Shown: positions 11,880-58,804 of the stretch, in pieces
How the letters are laid out: the number at the start of each line of letters is the position of its first letter
Position numbering within the stretch: the stretch's first letter is position 1
Assembly (NCBI GenBank): GCA_018435055.1
Contig: JAHDOA010000004.1
Coordinates: forward strand, 62,001 to 126,000
Source: Pelotomaculum sp.
Lineage (GTDB): Bacteria; Bacillota; Desulfotomaculia; Desulfotomaculales; Pelotomaculaceae
DNA: 64,000 nt
Reading direction: 5' to 3'
Translations under genes and position numbers: made by a program
The notes under the pieces: generated by a model
What the model was told of the DNA's origin: nothing
Databases searched by the model: none
What the model saw: the letters and a program-made list of their open reading frames with translations, nothing else

Positions 11880-12626
11880 TTATATCTTTCCAAGGGCCGC
11901 CAGGACATCGGTCAGGACACGCCCCGCCATTTCATTGATCACTACGGCGGCCCGGTCATCCCACGGGGTGGGCTCTTTATTTACAATAGCCAGCTGAGCG
12001 GCCCTTTCCGGGAGCGCCGCCACCGGGTATACCGTAAGGCTGCTGCCTACCACTATCAGCAGACGGCATTTGTCCATGGCGTGCACTGCCCCGGTAAAAT
12101 CCTCTCCCAGCGGGTCTTCAAAGAGTACCACATCAAGCCTCAGCACACCGCCGCAATTCTCACAGAGGGGCGGGTTTGTCCCCTTATTAAACTGGTTAAC
12201 CAGGAAATCTAACGGGTAACGTTGCTCACAATCCATACAGCGGCAGGTTCTCAGGTGGCCATGCGCCTCCCAGAGTTGTTTTGTCCCTGCTTTACTGTGC
12301 AGGCCGTCAATATTTTGCGTGATTACACCCCTGAGCAGTCCTTCCCTCTCCAACCTGGCCAGAACATAGTGGGCGGCGTTGGGTTCGACCCCCGTAAACC
12401 GGGTCCAGCGATCCAGGTTAATTTCGTAAAAAGCAGCCGGATCCCGCTTCAGGGCTGATACGGTAGCCACCTTGACCGGGTCGAACTTTGTCCAGAGACC
12501 TGTACCGGGGCTGCGGAAATCGGGGATGCCGCTTTCGGTGCTTATACCAGCCCCCGTTAGGGCTAAAGTGTATGATGACTTTTTTATCAGGCCGGCCAGG
12601 TGGCTAATCTTTTCAGTGTAATCCAT
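11880..12626 (-). CDS. cobB: NAD-dependent protein deacetylase (sirtuin)
   Basis: The 248-residue Sir2-family enzyme removes acetyl groups from lysines using NAD. The NAD-binding motif TGAGISTESGIPDFRSPG is near residue 24, TQNIDGLHSKAG follows, and the catalytic histidine is in EAHGHL. Four zinc cysteines occur in two pairs (CRCMDCEQRY and CENCGG), then GSSLTVYPVAALP. The length is standard. It is not obviously part of an operon. Confidence 0.93.
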   Translation of the reverse strand: MDYTEKISHLAGLIKKSSYTLALTGAGISTESGIPDFRSPGTGLWTKFDPVKVATVSALKRDPAAFYEINLDRWTRFTGVEPNAAHYVLARLEREGLLRGVITQNIDGLHSKAGTKQLWEAHGHLRTCRCMDCEQRYPLDFLVNQFNKGTNPPLCENCGGVLRLDVVLFEDPLGEDFTGAVHAMDKCRLLIVVGSSLTVYPVAALPERAAQLAIVNKEPTPWDDRAAVVINEMAGRVLTDVLAALGKI

Positions 12627-12749
12627 ATTTCACACACCCCTATATTTTAATATGGTAACAGTTACCTGAATATAATCATAATAGCAGGCGCCGGCAAAAA
12701 CAAGACCATGCCACCCGGGCGGATGGTTGCACGCCATATATATCATATG

Positions 12750-13799
12750 TTATTTCTCGGGCTCCAGTCCTGCCAGGGGGTCTATTTGCTCCAGTGTTTT
12801 ACCGAATAGCAGGCTGCCTGCTCCCAGCAGGAGATTCAGGACAGCGAAAAAAAGGTAGATCAGGCTGAACGCGGCAGTTTCTTTTAATAATAGATACCCG
12901 CCGTAAAGCAGTAGCCCGCACCAAAAATAACTCTTTGTTTTTTTTCTGGAGCCAAAAGCCGAGTCAAGAAAGGCATCTATCCTCTTTTGCTTTCCTGCCT
13001 TTAATGTTCTGCCTGGCGTATCCGCATCCTTCCTGAAAGCTCCGATACCAGCCTGTCTGGCCAGATCAACCAACCCGTACCTGTTTACCAGCATGATTTT
13101 TATACCCGCGCGGGCCGCTTCCCTGGTAACCTGCGCCACGCCGGCAGCAAAATCTCCGTCGGTTATAAACAGGCCGTTCTTTAGCCCGGCGTCCCGCAGG
13201 GCGCTGAAAAAAGATCTGATTTCCTCCGGGGTTATCCGCTGTTCTTTTTCCTGGCGCAGGCATTTGATTCCCACTGGAATGCCCTTAAAAATACCCTTTA
13301 TATCGATCAGGCTGTCCCGTTTAGCCAGTTTCATCCGGTCCTTTCTTAGAGTCAACTCCAGGAAACCAGGCAGGTTGCTGAGCATAGCCATAATCAAAGG
13401 CGCAAACTCTTGCCGGGGACGCAACCTTATATCATCCATAAACCGCTGTCCCGCCAGCCAGAGACCCTGCTGGATTTTTCGCCTCCCGTCCAACTTTTCC
13501 AAAACCTTTTTCAGTATCACAGCCGCCGCTGCCAGTAACAGCAGTGAGACAGTTAACGAGGCAGCAGGTTTGCGAGTCAGATTAAGCAGTAAAAGAAAAC
13601 CAGCCAGCCATACCAGCAAAAGCCCGCCGATATAGTCAACGCTTTTACCGATTATTGTCCTGTCGTCTTCTTTTGGTTTCCGTATAAAATAACGCAGGAC
13701 AGCGCCCCGGTCACGTCTCTCTTTCCAGCGGGCGAGACTGAACTTGAAATGCCGGCCTCTGATTGCTAATAGTTTTCCGGCTTTAAATCTTTTCATCAT
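12750..13799 (-). CDS. Membrane protein with Mrr/restriction-endonuclease-like domain
   Basis: The 349-residue protein has an N-terminal basic region, two transmembrane segments near residues 55-95, a soluble domain and two more hydrophobic segments at about 295-340. The middle section reads DSLIDIKGIFKGIPVGIKCL and then ITPEEIRSFFSALRDAGLKNGLFITDGDF. This resembles the D-(D/E)xK core of Mrr-type endonuclease domains and their following helix and strand. A nuclease at the inner membrane surface would be unusual, and the fold could be inactive. The gene is divergent from thrC. Confidence 0.55.
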   Translation of the reverse strand: MMKRFKAGKLLAIRGRHFKFSLARWKERRDRGAVLRYFIRKPKEDDRTIIGKSVDYIGGLLLVWLAGFLLLLNLTRKPAASLTVSLLLLAAAAVILKKVLEKLDGRRKIQQGLWLAGQRFMDDIRLRPRQEFAPLIMAMLSNLPGFLELTLRKDRMKLAKRDSLIDIKGIFKGIPVGIKCLRQEKEQRITPEEIRSFFSALRDAGLKNGLFITDGDFAAGVAQVTREAARAGIKIMLVNRYGLVDLARQAGIGAFRKDADTPGRTLKAGKQKRIDAFLDSAFGSRKKTKSYFWCGLLLYGGYLLLKETAAFSLIYLFFAVLNLLLGAGSLLFGKTLEQIDPLAGLEPEK

Positions 13800-29830: not shown

Positions 29831-29868
29831 GTTGTCAACAACCCCGTCCCCCTGACACCCCTTGACAC
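29831..29868. repeat. REP-like element, copy 2 (overlaps the end of carB)
   Basis: The element has GTTGTCAACA, CCCCGTCCCC and TGACACC, then CTTGACAC, on the plus strand. It overlaps the 3' end of carB from 29835, so its minus-strand reading supplies the last residues (GVSGGRGC) and the TGA stop of CarB. Confidence 0.75.
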
Positions 29869-50680: not shown

Positions 50681-53600
50681 TTAGAATTTGCCGTAATCTT
50701 CGTCGTCCAGTGAGATAACGCTCTTCGGGTTTGCCGGCGACGTCGCGGCCACTTCCGGCATAGCGTTGTGCGCCGCTCTTGACGCGGCGCCCGTGGACCG
50801 CCTCTGACCCCCTGCATGCTGCATATGGGGAGCGATGCCGCCCGGTGAATTTGCCGCTAAAGCACTGCCGAAAACTGACCGCTTGAGCTTGAATTTGCCC
50901 AGTGCCTGCTTGACCATCTCAGCCTGGCTGTTCATCTCCTGGCTGGCGGCGGCCAATTCCTCGGAACTGGCCGAGTTCTGCTGGGTGACCTGGTCTACCT
51001 GGTTCAGTCCTTCGTTGATCTGGCCGATGCCCGCGGCCTGCTCCTTGGAAGCGGAGGCGATCTCGCTGATCAGGTCGGTTACCTTGGCCGACTCTATCAC
51101 GATCTCTTCCAGCGCTTTGGAGGTTTCTTCCGCAATTCTGGTCCCGACCTCAGTCTTCTTAATCGAGCCTTCGATCATCTCGGCTGTCTCCTTGGCTGCC
51201 TTGGCGCTGCGCTGGGCCAGGTTCCTCACTTCTTCGGCTACCACAGTGAATCCTTTGCCGTGTTTGCCGGCCCGGGCGGCTTCAACTGCCGCGTTTAAGG
51301 CTAAAAGGTTGGTCTGGAAGGCTATTTCGTCGATGGCTTTAATAATATTGGATATGTTGGCGGCGGATTCGTTGATATCACTCATGGCTTTTAGCATCTG
51401 CCCCATTTGCTCGTTGCCTTTTTCGGCAAAGCCTCTGGACTGGGCTGCCAGCTGGTTGGCCTGGGTAGCGTTTTCAGCGTTCTGCCTCGTCTGGGCGTTC
51501 ATCTGCTGCATGGAGGAAGTAATCTCCGCCATCGTGCTGGCCGATTCAGCCGCCCCCTGTGACAGGGCCTGGCTGGAGTCGGAAACCTGCTGGGCGCCGG
51601 TGCTTACCTGTTCGATGGCCACGGAGACCTGGCCCAATATTTCGTTAAGGTCGTTGATGGTGGTGTTGAGCGCGTTTTTGATGATGGCGTAGTCGCCTTT
51701 ATAGTCGCCGGTGACCGCCACGTCCAGGTTGCCTTTAGCTATTTCCTGCAGGCAGCCGACGGCCTCTTTTTTGATAATGTCGTTTAAAGCGTCGAGCGTG
51801 GTGTTCAAAGCGTTCTTGATCATGGCGTGATCACCCTTGTAGTCACCGGTGACTCTTACGTCCAGGTTGCCTTCAGCCATCGCTTTCAGGCAGTAGGCTG
51901 CTTCTCTAATCGGGTCGACTATGGCGTCCATCATTTTGTTGACGCCTTCGACGACCTTGCGGTACTCGCCTTCGTGCCCGGCAGCGTCGGCGCGGGTATC
52001 GAGCTTTCCTTCCACGGCCGCCCCGGCCAGCATGTTGGCGTCTTCCGCCAGCCTGCCGATGGCCTCGATCATCCGGATAAAGCCGGGTACCAGCTCGTCG
52101 TTTTCGCTTCGCCGGCCGATCTTCTTATAGTCGTCCAGGTCGATCAGGCTGCCGTTACTGACATTGACAATGGTATCGCGTATTTTTGTCAGCCGCGCGT
52201 TGACATTGTTGGTAGCGTCTTTAAGATCGTTCCAGATACCGGCGTATTCTTTATCCATCTTTTTAGTGAGATCGTTATCCGCCATCCGGCCCAGAATGTC
52301 AATCAATTCACCTACTGGCTCAGCCACGGCTGCCATCAGGCCGTTCATGCCGCCCACCAGCTTGCCCCAGTCGCCGGCAAAGGCGCCTGCGTCGCCGCGT
52401 TCACCCAATCTGCCTTCCTGCACGGCCAGGATCAGGCCGTCGGCTTCTTTGAGCAAGCCGTTCACGGCGTCTATACAGCCGTTCAGGTTGTTCTTGAGTT
52501 CGTTGAAGTCGCCGTGGTAGGTATCGGTGATCCGGGGCGGGATATCGCCCTTGCTGATCCTGTCCACGTACTCGGCCGCCACGTTTAAAGGCCCGATTAT
52601 GGCGTCCAGGGTCTTGTTAACCCCTTCGATAACCTTGCGGTAGTCACCATTATGCCTGGTAGCGTCGGCGCGGGTATCAAGTTTTCCTTCCACTGCCGCC
52701 GCAGCGAGCATCCCGGCGTCTCCCACCAGGTTTTGAATGGCTCCCATCATCCGGATAAAGGCAGGGATCAATTCGTCTTGGTCGCATCTGCGCCCGATTT
52801 TCTTTAAGCTGTCCAGGTCGGTGAGGTTGCCGTTGCTGATATTATTAACCACTTCCAGAATTCTGACATTATGATCATTAACCACGTTGACGGCATTATT
52901 GAGGTCGCCCCACGCTCCGGTGTATTCTTTTACTACTCTCTGGCTGTAATCATTTACCGCCAGCCGGCCCATAACCGCTATTAGTTCATCAACCGGCTCT
53001 GCCACGGCTGCCATCAGGCCGTTCATGCCGCCCACCAGCTTGCCCCAGTCGCCGGTAAAGGCGCCTGCGTTACCGCGTTCATCCAGCCGGCCCTCCCGCA
53101 CGGCCAGGATTAGTCCGTCGGTTTCTTTGAGCAATCCGTTCACGGCGTCGATGCAGCCGTTCAGGTTGTTTTTAATCTCGTTAAAGTCGCCCTGATAGGT
53201 ATCGGTAATCTTGGGTGGGATGTCGCCTTTGCTGATCCGATCCACGTACTCGGCCGCCACGTTCAAAGGCCCAATCACGGCGTCCAGGGTATCGTTCATG
53301 CCCTGGATGATTCCCTGGAATTCGAAATCAACTTTTTCCACATCCCCGCGGATGTCCAGCTTGCCTTCTTTGGCGGCCTCAATCAGCCGCCTGCTTTCGG
53401 CGAGCAGCGCGCTGATAATTTTCTGCACAGATCTGGCGATTAAAAGGCTCAGGCCGATGCCGAGCAGGAGCATTATAATGCTGAGAATGATGGTGATATA
53501 ATCCAATTTTGCCACGCTGGCGTTCGAAGATTGTATGCTTTCGTTAAATATATTTTCGTTGCCGGCGATTAGTGTGTCGATAATGTCGGTCAACTGGCCG

Positions 53601-54073
53601 GTAATCGGCACCAACCCGCCGGCAATGCTAGCGACATCTTGCTGGAGCGTTTGCATACTCTGCCGGTCTGTCGCTTTGAACTGCTTTTCTGTGGCCGGGA
53701 TCAAGTCATTCGTGATGCCCCTGTGGTAGCTGGCGGTTAAGTCAATCAGTTTCTGCACATCGTTTTTTTTATCCTGAGGGGCAATCTCCAGGAGTCTATT
53801 TTCCAGATCGGCAGTCTGGCTCAACGCTGTGTTGTAATCATCCCTGAAATTATCCTTGCCGTATGCTATATAGCCGCGAATGCCGCTCACGCCTTCGTCG
53901 AAGTGACTTTGAATGCTATTTAACAGCATTAGCCTTTCTTTTGCTGTTTCAACGTCCTTCATGTCTTTTTTGATGGAATTTGTCAAAACAAATGATGTTG
54001 CGCCCATGATCACCAGCAAAAGTAGTATAACTGTAAAACCCATAACTATTTTTGAACCAATTTTTAGCTTCAT
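50681..54073 (-). CDS. Methyl-accepting chemotaxis protein with tandemly repeated HAMP-like region
   Basis: The 1130-residue receptor has a transmembrane helix at residues 8-31, a four-helix-bundle-type extracellular sensor (about 32-190), a second helix (193-213) and a very long HAMP-rich region (215-815). The signalling domain follows, with the highly conserved hairpin tip [20 protein letters not shown] near residue 916. Residues 262-487 and 488-713 are a tandem duplication of 226 residues, and a third partial unit starts at 714. The Gln/Ser-rich end reads [10 protein letters not shown]. Such long poly-HAMP arrays are rare. Ligand unknown; cheR-like gene is nearby upstream. Confidence 0.93.
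51935..52612 (-). repeat. Chemoreceptor internal repeat unit 2
   Basis: This codes residues 488-713, starting [20 protein letters not shown], and is the second 678-base unit of a tandem duplication within the chemoreceptor gene. Confidence 0.85.
52613..53290 (-). repeat. Chemoreceptor internal repeat unit 1
   Basis: This codes residues 262-487, starting [20 protein letters not shown]. Protein identity to unit 2 is very high in its first half (such as [20 protein letters not shown] in both) and lower in the second. Confidence 0.85.
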
Positions 54074-54100: not shown

Positions 54101-54697
54101 TTAAGTGATCAGGCTTTTTCTGACATTAGCAAGTGTATTCCTGATCATTTCCCCTGCATTTTCGGTAACAGGGCTGTCGTGGCCGGAATAAATTATATCT
54201 ATCTTTTTTCCAGCCAATTTTTTTAGTGACTTTACAAACACCTCCTGGTATGATCCGCCCGGCATTCTAATATTGAGCGGGGTGTCGCCGGAAAACAGCG
54301 TTTTTTCCCTGGCGCAATACAGGCAAATGGAGTCGTTTGAGTGACCGGGCGTGTGCATCACTTCGAAATCGCGGTCTCCTATACGCAGGATCTGGCCGTC
54401 GGCAACAACCCTGTCAACACCGGCAATTTTCGCATAGGCGTACACCTCGGGGTTATATCTGTCTATAATAGCCGCCAGGCCGCCGGCGTGGTCAAAATGT
54501 CCGTGAGTTAGGACTACCCGCTCCACGGGCCGTTTGCCTACCCCCGTGGATATCCTGCCAATCTCATCGATAATGTAACCGTCGGCGCCGGTGTCCACCA
54601 GGGTATTGACGTCCTCCAGGCGGTTCCAACTTCCCAGAATCAGGTAGGCGTTGCAGCAATAAGATTTGCTATTGCCCTTTAAGCTGATGACCTTCAT
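54101..54697 (-). CDS. MBL-fold metallo-hydrolase
   Basis: The 198-residue protein has the metallo-beta-lactamase signature LTHGHFDHAGGLAAI (residues about 63-77), HTPGHSNDSICLYCA and FSGDTPLN, and a late YSGHDSPV. These bind two metals. It resembles glyoxalase II-like hydrolases, but the substrate is unknown. Its start lies inside the end of the CheR-type gene (29-base overlap), so they are translationally linked. Confidence 0.9.
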   Translation of the reverse strand: MKVISLKGNSKSYCCNAYLILGSWNRLEDVNTLVDTGADGYIIDEIGRISTGVGKRPVERVVLTHGHFDHAGGLAAIIDRYNPEVYAYAKIAGVDRVVADGQILRIGDRDFEVMHTPGHSNDSICLYCAREKTLFSGDTPLNIRMPGGSYQEVFVKSLKKLAGKKIDIIYSGHDSPVTENAGEMIRNTLANVRKSLIT

Positions 54698-55307
54698 TAG
54701 CGCCTCCCAGTTTTCGGAACAACTGCGCGTCCGCCGCTACCTGCTCAAACAATCCGGCGAGCTCGCGCGGCAGCTTTTGTGTCTGCTCTGTGGCAAAATA
54801 GCCGCCCGGCGCCAGCGCGCCGTGAAACATCTTCATTACTTCTACCCGTTCAGCCGGCTGGAAATGCAGCAGCACGTTCTTGCACAGCACCAGGTTATAT
54901 GAGGCGCCTGCCGGTTGCAAAGAAAGCAAGTCGTGCTTGCGAAAAAATATCTTGCTTCTAATAGCGTCGTCTATCCTGAAACAGCCTGTTTTCTTGTCCG
55001 GGTAAAAATATTTTTTGAACAACTCGCGCGGGATCCGCTTCAGATCTTCTTCCGGATATATCCCTGCGGCAATGATATTCCCAAAAAGGTTGCTGCCGTC
55101 TATATCCGTGGCGTCTATGCGCAGATTGCGGAAAGCGAAGCGCCCCATATTCTCGGCAAACATAATGGCCAGTGAATACGGCTCCGGACCCATGGCGCAT
55201 CCGGCGTCCCACACGCGCACCTTGCTGTAGCCCGCCACAGATGGGATAACGTGTTTGACAATTAATTCAAGTGTGTGCATATCCCGAAAAAAATAAGTAA
55301 ACGCCAT
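54669..55307 (-). CDS. CheR-type methyltransferase lacking the N-terminal domain
   Basis: The 212-residue protein covers the SAM-binding half of CheR: TYFFRDMHTLELIVKHVIPS, the SAM motif VWDAGCAMGPEPYSLAIMF, DIDGSNLFGNIIAAGIYPEE, and LVLCKNVLLHFQPAERVEVM. Full CheR proteins have about 260-280 residues with an N-terminal helical domain, absent here. CheR methylates glutamates on chemoreceptors. It lies upstream of the MBL gene and the giant receptor, so the receptor may be its target. Confidence 0.85.
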   Translation of the reverse strand: MAFTYFFRDMHTLELIVKHVIPSVAGYSKVRVWDAGCAMGPEPYSLAIMFAENMGRFAFRNLRIDATDIDGSNLFGNIIAAGIYPEEDLKRIPRELFKKYFYPDKKTGCFRIDDAIRSKIFFRKHDLLSLQPAGASYNLVLCKNVLLHFQPAERVEVMKMFHGALAPGGYFATEQTQKLPRELAGLFEQVAADAQLFRKLGGANEGHQLKGQ

Positions 55308-55681: not shown

Positions 55682-58600
55682 CTATTTGATGATGATGTTT
55701 TCGACGGACCTGGCTCTTGCCGTGCCGCTTCCATCGTGGAGAGATAGCACAAAACGGTAGGTCCCTTTGGGGGCGCCCGCCGGCAGGCGCAAGGTTGCCT
55801 GGCCTCCGGTGATGGTTACCGGCTGATCTATCTGTCCCTCCATATCCAGATAACTCATGGCGTATTTTTGCTGCAGGGTTGCTTTAACACTGCCCGGGCC
55901 TAAAGTTTGAATAGAAAAGACCACAGGAATAGAAGATGATGACGATTGGTCAAATACCCTGTTTTCAGCATTTGCCTTGATCGCATAGGCAACAGGCGCG
56001 GTCAGGTTAATATCGGTCGAACCGCCCGCCAGTAGATAACCGCTGCGCGGGTTTAAAATATCCGCGCAGGAATAGGCCCTGGCCTGCAAGGTGTATTTCC
56101 CTGCAGCAAGGGGGGCGGCGCATTCCGACATATCCAGGGATACAGTGGCCGTATGATCGAAGTCAAGGGGCAGAAAAGCATAGGGCAGGACAGCTGAGAC
56201 AAAAGTTCCGTTGATTTTAGCGCCTGCAGGTAAAGGCGCTATTTCTGTTCCACCCGCCCCTTCCTTTTCCAGATAAAATTCGCAGGCAAATGCTTTCCCA
56301 TCGGTCTTATAGTCGTAGCCGGCAACAGGGGTTTTACTAACGCTGACTTCAAATATATTATTAGCAGTACTGTCTACAGAAAGATTATATTCATTCTTGC
56401 CGGCGACCGTAACTGCCGGTAGTGCGCCGGTATAACCTCCATCAGGGTGGGACAGTTCAATAGTATAGGGATTGGCCGGGATTTGACTCTCTATGGCAGT
56501 TTTGGAAAAATCAAAGATAAACAGGTACTCCGCTGTGTCATCTTTTGTTGCCGCCGCAGGGCTGTAGCGCTGGTCTGCGCTTCCCATTTTTATAAATTCA
56601 CCCAATGTGATCGCCGGTACCGGCTGTGTCAAGTTAATATAATAGTAGGCGTCCCCGGCCAGCATGATGACTGAGGTACCGGCAGGCAGCTGCGTTGCCG
56701 CATTGTCGTTTTTCAGTTTTAGAGTTTGTTCTTCCGGCGCACAGTTCACTTTGTATTTGAGCCCAAAGGCCACCGTAAAAACACTTTCCGCAGTTACCGC
56801 AGCCGCAGCGCCGGTTTCCAACTGCGCCGCGGTATAATATTTACCTTCTTTGATCACCGCATTAACTATTTTAAACACCGCACTGGACTCAGTACCCTCG
56901 CTCGGCTTTGGCACTCCGTCGTCATCCAAATCCTGGTTCCAAATATGATCACCGGCGTCATTATCCTCATTCAATAAATCCTGAACTTCCTCCCAGGTCA
57001 TATCACCGACAGGAACGGCGCCGTCGTCGTCAAGGATGTCACCAGTTGTTGTGCCCCCCGGCGCGCCGGTATAATCATAATAATAGTTATTCCAGGCATT
57101 ATCTTCATCAATCACATTACCGATCACGCACCCCACATATTGAGGGCCGTCAACTGTTCCTTTATTTAAGTTATGATGGACGACCGTTTCCGGGCTGACA
57201 TAGCCGACGATACCACCGATGCCCCCTTGTCCGCCGCCAGCGACTGCTCCCGAGTTAAAGCTATTGCTTACAGTGCTGTTGTTACCGGTCTCTCCGGCCA
57301 CACCTCCTATATGGCCGTCACTCCCGTTCACGTTACCCGTATTAATGCAGATTTTAATCACGCCGTCCGTGGAACCGGCGATGCCACCCACCTGGCCGAT
57401 CCCTGTTATATTACCGGAAGAGGAGGAGTTGCTTATTTCACTACCGGTATTGGCGCGTCCCACTACTCCACCAACGTGATGCTGGCCATTTCCGGTCACA
57501 GAGCATTCGGCGCTGCAGCGGGTGACCATGCCGTCTGATATACCTGCCACACCTCCCACATAACCCTGTCCCGCATTGGCCGTTACTGTTCCCGAAATAC
57601 TACAATCGCTGATGACGCTGCCACTCCCGTGAGAATATCCTGCCACACCACCGATGTAACTATTGGGCGCCGAAACGGCCACGTTGACGACGCAACCTTT
57701 AATCTCACCGTCCGTCCTGCCGGCCACGCCGCCCGCGTATGCCGCTCCCCCTGTTGCTGAAACAGTTGCCGTAACAGTACAATTGATTATTTTGCTGCCG
57801 GCGCCGGCGGCATAACCCGCTACGCCTCCGACATAACTATTTTTTGATGTTATAACGGCATTGACGGCGCACCCGGTGATCAGCCCGTCTGTTTGGCCGG
57901 CTATTCCTCCCGTATAAAAGTTATTGACATCCAGGACGGTTCCGGAAAAACTGCAATTGCTGATTTCAGCGCCAGTTCCAGCGGCATAACCGGCTATCCC
58001 TCCCACTTTCTTAACCCCAGTTATCGTCTTGTCACTATTGCATTCTGTAATCTTACCCTCTGTGTAGCCGGCTATCCCCCCCACACATTCACTTCCCTCT
58101 ATCGTCCCGGAAGCATTGCAGTTGCTTATGATACTGTTAACACCGGCATAACCGGCTATGCCGCCATGGTAATGTGTCCAGGCGATAGTCACCGGACAGT
58201 TCACTTCACACCCGCTGATCAACCCGTTGGTGTAGCCGGCCACAGCTCCGGATTTATTTCCCCCGGCAATACTGCCCGATATCTTCAAATTCTTGATCTC
58301 GCTGCCGGTGTCGGCATAGCCAAATAGCCCCTGGTATTCAACATAGCTGATATCGATATACAAGCCGATTATTTCAAATCCATTACCGTCAAAGATCCCC
58401 TTGAATGGTTTGCCGGCGCTGCCGATACTGGTAAATTTCTTCCTGTTATATGGCTGAGAAACAAAGGTACCATCGGCATTCATACTGTTTAACAGGATAT
58501 CCTGGGTAAGCCTTATATATTTGCCTTCATAGGTGACGTTGCCACTGGCCTTGTTAACCTGCTGGGATAAATAGGCCAGCTGTTCCCCGGTGCTGATTAA

Positions 58601-58804
58601 ATAAGGGTCAGACTCCGTCCCCGTCCCTCCGGCAAAACTTGTGGCAGCGGAGCCGTTCCATTCATTGCTTACCCCATAAACGGCAGTCGTACCAATATGG
58701 AATAAAGACATCATAATAGCAAAAGCAATTATGATTAATAAGCCGGGTATATAGCGGCTTTTAAATTTATTCTTTTTGTGGACAATATTTTGATCCATAA
58801 TCAT
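55682..58804 (-). CDS. Large surface protein with GLUG repeats
   Basis: The 1040-residue protein has a basic N-terminus and a hydrophobic segment at residues 17-38, then a signal-peptide-like end (HIGTTAVYGVSNEW). Residues about 130-600 contain about 16 GLUG-type repeats of 20-25 residues (GGIAGYTEGKITECNSDKTI-like), expected to form a beta-helix. Ig-like beta-rich domains follow to the end (TLKLKNDNAATQLPAGTSVI). No LPXTG or S-layer motif is seen. GLUG proteins are adhesins or extracellular matrix components. It is the last gene of the riboswitch-controlled unit. Confidence 0.85.
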   Translation of the reverse strand: MIMDQNIVHKKNKFKSRYIPGLLIIIAFAIMMSLFHIGTTAVYGVSNEWNGSAATSFAGGTGTESDPYLISTGEQLAYLSQQVNKASGNVTYEGKYIRLTQDILLNSMNADGTFVSQPYNRKKFTSIGSAGKPFKGIFDGNGFEIIGLYIDISYVEYQGLFGYADTGSEIKNLKISGSIAGGNKSGAVAGYTNGLISGCEVNCPVTIAWTHYHGGIAGYAGVNSIISNCNASGTIEGSECVGGIAGYTEGKITECNSDKTITGVKKVGGIAGYAAGTGAEISNCSFSGTVLDVNNFYTGGIAGQTDGLITGCAVNAVITSKNSYVGGVAGYAAGAGSKIINCTVTATVSATGGAAYAGGVAGRTDGEIKGCVVNVAVSAPNSYIGGVAGYSHGSGSVISDCSISGTVTANAGQGYVGGVAGISDGMVTRCSAECSVTGNGQHHVGGVVGRANTGSEISNSSSSGNITGIGQVGGIAGSTDGVIKICINTGNVNGSDGHIGGVAGETGNNSTVSNSFNSGAVAGGGQGGIGGIVGYVSPETVVHHNLNKGTVDGPQYVGCVIGNVIDEDNAWNNYYYDYTGAPGGTTTGDILDDDGAVPVGDMTWEEVQDLLNEDNDAGDHIWNQDLDDDGVPKPSEGTESSAVFKIVNAVIKEGKYYTAAQLETGAAAAVTAESVFTVAFGLKYKVNCAPEEQTLKLKNDNAATQLPAGTSVIMLAGDAYYYINLTQPVPAITLGEFIKMGSADQRYSPAAATKDDTAEYLFIFDFSKTAIESQIPANPYTIELSHPDGGYTGALPAVTVAGKNEYNLSVDSTANNIFEVSVSKTPVAGYDYKTDGKAFACEFYLEKEGAGGTEIAPLPAGAKINGTFVSAVLPYAFLPLDFDHTATVSLDMSECAAPLAAGKYTLQARAYSCADILNPRSGYLLAGGSTDINLTAPVAYAIKANAENRVFDQSSSSSIPVVFSIQTLGPGSVKATLQQKYAMSYLDMEGQIDQPVTITGGQATLRLPAGAPKGTYRFVLSLHDGSGTARARSVENIIIK

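Follow-up and report, generated by a model that had tools for sequence, protein, structure and literature searches.

The stretch of Pelotomaculum sp. DNA analysed here, 64,000 nucleotides in length and referred to below as the window, carries on its reverse strand the gene for a chemoreceptor in which a long chain of HAMP modules lies between two transmembrane segments and a methyl-accepting (MCP) signalling domain. The receptor gene and its two neighbours are laid out as follows.

54669..55307, reverse strand: CheR', a CheR-like methyltransferase of 212 residues with no CheR_N match (Pfam)
54101..54697, reverse strand: metallo-beta-lactamase fold protein between CheR' and the receptor, with HxHxDH seen by eye (Pfam)
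50681-54073, reverse strand: poly-HAMP chemoreceptor gene, 1130 residues (open reading frame and profile matches)
53984..54040, reverse strand: first transmembrane segment (TM1), residues 12-30 (hydropathy scan)
53435..53491, reverse strand: second transmembrane segment (TM2), residues 195-213 (hydropathy scan)
53270..53407, reverse strand: H0, the first HAMP after TM2, residues 223-268 (HMM of this analysis)
52613..53290, reverse strand: unit 1 as first cut, residues 262-487 (repeat search and alignment)
51935..52612, reverse strand: unit 2 as first cut, residues 488-713 (repeat search and alignment)
52718..52861, reverse strand: D-type HAMP H4, residues 405-452 (module HMMs)
52040..52186, reverse strand: D-type HAMP H9, residues 630-678 (module HMMs)
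51629..51913, reverse strand: cap di-HAMP H11-H12, residues 721-815 (HMM of this analysis and comparison with the units)
50984..51454, reverse strand: MCP signalling domain PF00015, residues 874-1030 (Pfam)
50684..50698, reverse strand: C-terminal DYGKF, which fits xZxxZ (motif check)

An earlier sequence-only reading had described the product as a chemoreceptor of 1130 residues built around a chain of HAMP-like modules, and both parts of that description hold: the open reading frame has this length, MCPsignal (PF00015) matches at 170.3 bits against a cut-off of 34.6, and the HAMP-specific check, run with Pfam HAMP_2 (PF18947), gives 408 bits in six stretches against a cut-off of 24.3. An HMM made for this analysis, with modules hand-cut from the window receptor as its seed, counts 13 contiguous and directly fused HAMP modules, H0 to H12. 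Neither a kinase domain nor a PAS domain appears among the Pfam matches to the receptor at E up to 1. Residues 844-1064 align to residues 5-225 of Tsr (1qu7), 221 on 221 residues, and the signalling hairpin is assigned to class 36H by this equal length to Tsr, not by a direct count of heptads.

The tandem duplication that had been proposed for residues 262-487 and 488-713 (678 bases each, window 51935-53290) is borne out by a gap-free alignment in which 165 of 226 residues and 520 of 678 bases are identical, the 158 mismatches falling 40/34/84 by codon position; 2000 shuffles of unit 2 reached at most 30 identical residues, with a mean of 17. Comparison of the array with itself gives 58.5% identity at lag 226, whereas lags 30-439 average 7.4% (sd 3.3). 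The repeat search returned the duplication as two families at a spacing of 678 (79% over 300 nt and 74% over 279 nt), and it is missing from the output of TRF because the longest period of that program is 500. In the register of the modules the units run from residue 269 to 494 (H1-H5) and from 495 to 720 (H6-H10), seven residues after the earlier cut, and each reads P-N-P-D-N, where P, N and D are type names coined for this analysis; a unit thus consists of a 91-residue di-HAMP and a 135-residue tri-HAMP. Alternation of module types, as first suggested, is found in the di-HAMP parts but is broken once per unit by the type D module. Similarly, a third unit had been placed at residue 714, where a diverged two-HAMP cap is indeed present, but it is not a third copy: the stretch of about 98 residues is identical to unit 1 at 25 of 98 positions and to unit 2 at 26 of 98.

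The longest exact run common to the two units is 55 nt, and over their whole length dS is 0.73 and dN 0.18. The two halves differ in this respect, with dS 0.47 and dN 0.046 in the first 98 residues (the di-HAMP half) and dS 1.02 and dN 0.30 in the remaining 128 (the tri-HAMP half), corresponding to dN/dS of about 0.1 and 0.3 and to 91% and 59% identity in the di-block and the tri-block, respectively. For a wider comparison, nine cores of 12 HAMPs from eight genomes, chosen for having the same module order (the window receptor, its C21 paralogue, and seven proteins from seven other genomes), were aligned; there are 0 gaps in 554 columns, and the other cores are 65-75% identical to that of the window. 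The same core occurs in other assemblies, including the record of Pelotomaculum propionicicum strain MGP. A tree of the tri-HAMP halves (128 residues) places the nine first and the nine second copies on opposite sides of one branch with support of 98/96, and a tree that pairs the window's own two copies is rejected (p 9e-5). Because the tri-HAMP halves sort by position across genomes, the duplication is old; it predates the divergence of the related receptors, and a recent duplication is rejected by the same tree. In the tree of the di-HAMP halves (98 residues), the copies are not sorted by position in the best topology, the window's two copies are adjacent with weak support (81/78), and a topology constrained to unite the nine first copies is not clearly rejected (p 0.056). 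The di-HAMP half thus seems to have been homogenised later between the units.

Across the family, the arrays are made up of blocks of nearly fixed length. Over 23 arrays, and counting spacings under 240 residues, 109 of 128 P-to-P spacings are exactly 91 (56) or exactly 135 (53), counts that are not independent, since the rows are related and the HMMs used for the spacings were built from an alignment of the family itself. The remaining 19 comprise five of 214, five of 181, three of 92, three of 130, two of 46 and one of 67; the spacing HMMs call the final N of the window array P. Ten distinct genes of the family have 11 or more contiguous modules; the lag peak lies at 226 in nine of them and at 317, which is 226+91, in the tenth (L059). 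Among the 19 arrays that reach the C-terminus, ten have the two-unit core at the C-terminal end and nine have other block orders, whereas the order P-D-N-P, with or without one more module, ends 18 of the 19. The number of D modules in these arrays ranges from one to four, and a parity rule, by which an odd five-HAMP unit needs a second copy to restore the sign, is rejected on this account. Free variation in the copy number of the unit is likewise not a simple description, as ten arrays keep exactly two at the output end and nine differ.

Family arrays span 8 to 35 module calls. The upper figure comes from an open-ended frame of 1791 residues (L059:380-5755) that runs off a 5754-base contig and gives 31 calls by a broader model; it belongs to a draft bin, and its exact module number is uncertain. 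The term giant, applied to the window receptor by the sequence-only reading, therefore holds only in a relative sense, since 1130 residues and 13 HAMPs are ordinary in a family with complete members of up to 1560 residues. A 4610-base contig of genome G008 ends within poly-HAMP receptor genes, and, as the G008 contigs of L060 and L066 end inside such genes, short-read assemblies may undercount these receptors. One G008 relative (C35:71039-72570) has an in-frame stop and is probably a pseudogene.

Long HAMP arrays also occur outside the family. A set of 72 such arrays with at least eight modules was drawn from the best 80 matches of one scan and is not a census; it leaves out arrays of under eight modules, as well as loci L074-L081 and L142, which count as family. 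The lag comparison was restricted to arrays with at least 11 contiguous modules. In 34 such arrays from outside the family, the lag peak is at 91 in 25, at 182, 273 or 455 in eight, and at 270 in one, which makes 33 of 34 with 91 or one of its multiples as the main period, as against 226 in the window receptor. D calls are absent from 41 of the 72 arrays and number one in 24, two in four and three in three; a P-D end with up to three further modules is found in 17 of the 56 that reach the C-terminus. Mixed P-D blocks are present outside the family, for example in L149, L119, L112 and L116, and mixed module codes thus exist elsewhere, though they are uncommon among the best 80 matches of that scan. 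The array of a 1738-residue MCP from a Nitrospiraceae bin (L127:4963-10179), with 28-29 HAMP modules, is nearly all di-HAMP.

On the sensory side, about 160 residues separate TM1 from TM2 in the window receptor by the hydropathy scan, and residues 2-79 resemble 4HB_MCP_1, below the cut-off (23.1 versus 27 bits). An sCache_3_3 domain is present in the 1560-residue paralogue, which also matches PAS_9. In eight of 21 family rows, the window receptor being among the 21, only 65-85 residues precede the first HAMP, and a periplasmic sensor is therefore not general. By the threshold used here, two hydrophobic segments are found in six of those eight rows and one in two, and the same scan gave no hydrophobic segment in two further rows (L051:7968-11978 and L058). 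Pfam returned no sensor domain for L017 or L049:8059-12735, two of the eight rows with a short N-terminus. Inspection of H0 (residues 223-268) by eye did not show the DExG motif, stated in PMC3570549 to be critical for the response to extracellular ligand; the first HAMP of the C21 paralogue has DDEIG, also by eye.

Sixty genomes, 59 of them from relatives and one the window's own, were searched with the whole protein, and at least 53 gave a match, many only to the signalling or the N-terminal part. Relatives that carry a name include Pelotomaculum, Candidatus Syntrophopropionicum and further bins of Desulfotomaculaceae or Peptococcaceae. Five MCP matches were obtained in the window's genome, of which three are poly-HAMP receptors of 965, 1130 and 1560 residues. 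This genome has one CheA and, apart from the CheW domain within CheA, one CheW; their genes directly adjoin that of the 1560-residue receptor, together with those of a two-domain CheR and CheB. In ten genomes, the dimerisation domain of CheA was found once in eight, twice in G012, and not at all in G005, which is 90% complete. Genome G008 combines receptors of 757 to 1455 residues, with 8 to 21 module calls, with one CheA. The window's genome has FlhA, which was not found in G012, a genome with such a receptor, and a non-flagellar output is therefore possible there. In L016, a rubrerythrin gene (12385-12876) lies directly upstream of the cheA-cheW-receptor-cheR-cheB cluster.

CheR', at the head of the window cassette, matches PF01739 at 132.6 bits, and PF03705 is not listed for it at E up to 1, while the C21 CheR carries both. 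The CheR' gene overlaps the next by 29 nt. Relatives of CheR' adjoin poly-HAMP receptors in L049, L050, L053, L056, L065 and L066, and in L066 a relative of the metallo-beta-lactamase fold protein occupies the same position. Identity of the latter with the ODP oxygen sensor was considered and is not claimed, as PF19583 gives 21 bits, below its cut-off of 27.2. A dispersed 21-base repeat, GGTGTCAACANCCCCGTCCCC, is found at window positions 29831, 50629, 55348, 55388 and 55652 and flanks the cassette of CheR', lactamase and receptor genes on both sides; the genome has 87 copies with at most two mismatches, and the reversed control has 0. In the copies that were read, a TGACACC-like end follows, giving a palindromic look. 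Upstream of the receptor cassette, window 55682-58804 encodes a protein of 1040 residues with eight GLUG motif stretches.

The C-terminal DYGKF of the window receptor fits the pentapeptide motif as defined in PMC7390727, namely a C-terminal xZxxZ in which Z is F, W or Y. The published survey, in the portion drawn on here, puts receptors with a pentapeptide at about 1% of those of Firmicutes (PMC7390727). With rows open at the 3' end left out, the motif fits 26 of 26 C-termini in the family and the nearby G047 and G059 (two of the rows are one gene), and 31 of 63 MCP rows outside the family. The C21 CheR has three residues fewer than Salmonella CheR (1bc5) in the beta-subdomain loop, aligning to P. 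aeruginosa CheR1 without that gap. CheR' is two residues shorter in the same loop, by a count made here on the printed strings. The beta-subdomain loop tells pentapeptide-dependent from pentapeptide-independent CheRs. Published accounts, as far as they were drawn on, describe features of this subdomain as making the same distinction. Taken at face value, the shorter loops of the C21 CheR and CheR' would argue against tethering of CheR; DYGKF itself presumably functions as a pentapeptide.

Matches to the receptor or its array among PDB sequences are 9trk/9trj, Aer2 (3vol), HAMP-Tsr (3zx6) and Tsr (1qu7). An AlphaFold model of one unit, with a mean pLDDT of 58.2, draws, with low confidence, helices separated by five non-helical connectors (27-31 residues for the inner ones) and a short helix within the D connector. 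A model of the 554-residue core (pLDDT 44.9) shows helix in place of the third connector in each unit; the two models disagree on this connector and are too weak for claims about the fold. A Foldseek search with the one-unit model gave nothing that reached E 0.001, Aer2 (3lnr) ranking fourth at E 1.9.

The explanation that best accounts for these observations, to which a probability of about 0.72 is given, is that the protein is a transmembrane, Aer2-like 36H receptor whose HAMP array acts as a relay rod. The receptor would most likely be a parallel dimer, in which a small periplasmic helical domain produces a change in TM2; 13 HAMP bundles, fused directly to one another and each acting as a two-state relay, would hand this change on to the 36H hairpin, and from there to the genome's one CheA/CheW pair and probably to flagellar rotation. 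Work on Aer2 describes HAMP1 and HAMP2 conformers that send opposite signals (in the part of PMC3570549 relied on), and by analogy with that system the earlier suggestion that such an array could transmit or tune a signal over an unusually long distance is reasonable. The array is assembled from blocks of fixed length, di-HAMPs of 91 and tri-HAMPs of 135 residues. Because the second helix of each HAMP continues as the first helix of the next, it would be mostly whole blocks that are gained or lost, with helix register kept. The last modules ahead of the signalling domain, P-D-N-P, are nearly constant, and variable upstream blocks would set reach and bias.

The length of such a rod can be estimated. 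In F7 arrays, about 17.5 nm separate the baseplate from the boundary between the signalling domain and the first HAMP (according to PMC7184735), and adding 13 HAMPs at 2.6 nm each, a value from geometry worked out here, would put the membrane about 51 nm above the baseplate; with 3.5 nm per HAMP, the figure taken from PMC6628036, it would be about 63 nm. The tallest membrane-to-baseplate distance given in the consulted part of PMC7184735 is 38.4 nm, for an Aer2-like array, versus 25 nm for ordinary arrays, both in V. cholerae. The 2019 geometric study covers, in the part drawn on, 0 to 2 HAMPs per receptor and a longest receptor of 545 Angstrom (PMC6628036).

Some of the same observations bear on other accounts of the array. 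That the repeat is an artefact of assembly, which the sequence-only reading had itself named as the finding that would undo it, or a very recent duplication, has a probability close to nil: repeats do break assemblies in this family, as the 4610-base contig of G008 illustrates, but the units differ at 158 of 678 bases, share no exact run above 55 nt, have a dS of 0.73, and recur in the same arrangement in related genomes and other assemblies. A less easily dismissed possibility is that the 226-residue period has no function, having arisen by neutral unequal crossing-over, with the constraints of the HAMP fold alone keeping its length. The arrays do differ between paralogues, and the contrast between a di-block that is 91% identical and unsorted by position in the best tree and a tri-block that is 59% identical is in keeping with such a process; on the other side stand the sorting of the tri-blocks by position across genomes (98/96), the two-unit core in ten of 19 arrays that reach the C-terminus and the P-D-N-P end in 18 of 19, and the neutral account is considered unlikely, at perhaps one chance in five.

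Two further accounts concern what the array does. It is possible that the HAMP stack itself senses an osmotic, membrane or cytoplasmic state, a role considered for the fungal group III kinases, and that the N-terminus is only an anchor. The eight of 21 rows with 65-85 residues before the first HAMP are too short there for a sensor domain, none was returned by Pfam for L017 and L049:8059-12735, and group III kinases are described as being without transmembrane regions and tied to osmoregulation and fungicide sensitivity (in the parts of PMC7643160 and PMC3418262 that were drawn on). The window receptor, however, has about 160 residues between TM1 and TM2 with a weak 4HB_MCP_1 match, and the 1560-residue paralogue bears sCache_3_3 and PAS_9, and for the window receptor this account is judged quite unlikely. 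Alternatively, the array may act chiefly as a passive spacer and determine how tall the receptor lattice is, in which case its modules need not switch. Block lengths are mostly kept to the residue, and Aer2-like arrays of V. cholerae are indeed taller than ordinary ones (38.4 versus 25 nm, by the account in PMC7184735); yet receptors of 965, 1130 and 1560 residues on one CheA, and of 757 to 1455 residues in G008, keep no common height, and three module types would be needless in a spacer, so that this reading is improbable. For the relay reading itself, receptors with 8 to 21 module calls on the one CheA of G008 imply that no single lattice height serves without bending.

A broader proposal, tentative and rated at rather less than even odds, treats the family as a quantised code in which HAMP blocks of 91 and 135 residues are added, swapped and homogenised almost only as wholes, giving receptors of 8 to more than 20 HAMPs, some without room for a sensor, on one CheA. 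Lattices would then be multi-height or tolerant of mismatch, and in the sensorless receptors the HAMP stack would be the sensor. The family bears on how far a signal can reach through stacked HAMP bundles and on how receptors of unequal length are accommodated in one kinase lattice, as it provides a natural length series that runs from 8 to 35 module calls and uses two interchangeable blocks, and a single CheA is present in eight of the ten genomes examined. In the literature searched, with queries not worded exactly for these points, no description was found of the five-HAMP repeat, the 91/135 code or an unequal-length set on one CheA, and part of this may be in print; similarly, no paper was found joining methyl-accepting chemotaxis, HAMP domains and Pelotomaculum, and the family may still be published.

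The window receptor belongs with the poly-HAMP receptors that are already known, long examples of which turn up in many organisms. Its closest likeness is to Aer2/McpB of Pseudomonas and Vibrio (F7), in which directly fused, divergent HAMPs are likewise combined with a 36H domain (as set out in PMC3570549 and PMC7184735), and McpB/Aer2 of P. aeruginosa also ends in a C-terminal pentapeptide (PMC7698151, in the part drawn on). The best NCBIfam match of the window receptor is the Aer2 model NF041847, at 447.4 bits, short of its cut-off of 1200. The P. aeruginosa Aer2 is described as soluble, with five HAMPs and one haem PAS (PMC3570549, PMC7184735), whereas the window receptor has two transmembrane segments, 13 HAMPs and no PAS match. 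Chains of HAMPs are also found in the group III poly-HAMP histidine kinases (NIK1, Bos1, AskA/B), and the best PDB sequence matches to the window array, 9trk/9trj, are named histidine kinase fusions; the output of those proteins is a histidine kinase, and that of the window receptor an MCP domain. E. coli Tsr has one HAMP. The 36H hairpin is shared by Tsr and the window receptor, with 221 residues aligned on 221 (1qu7). Finally, the poly-HAMP MCPs of Geomonas, Methanolobus, Nitrospiraceae and Bacteroidetes bins, with up to 28-29 HAMPs, resemble the window receptor in ending in an MCP domain and differ from it in period, which is 91 or a multiple of 91 in 33 of the 34 long arrays from outside the family and 226 in the window receptor.
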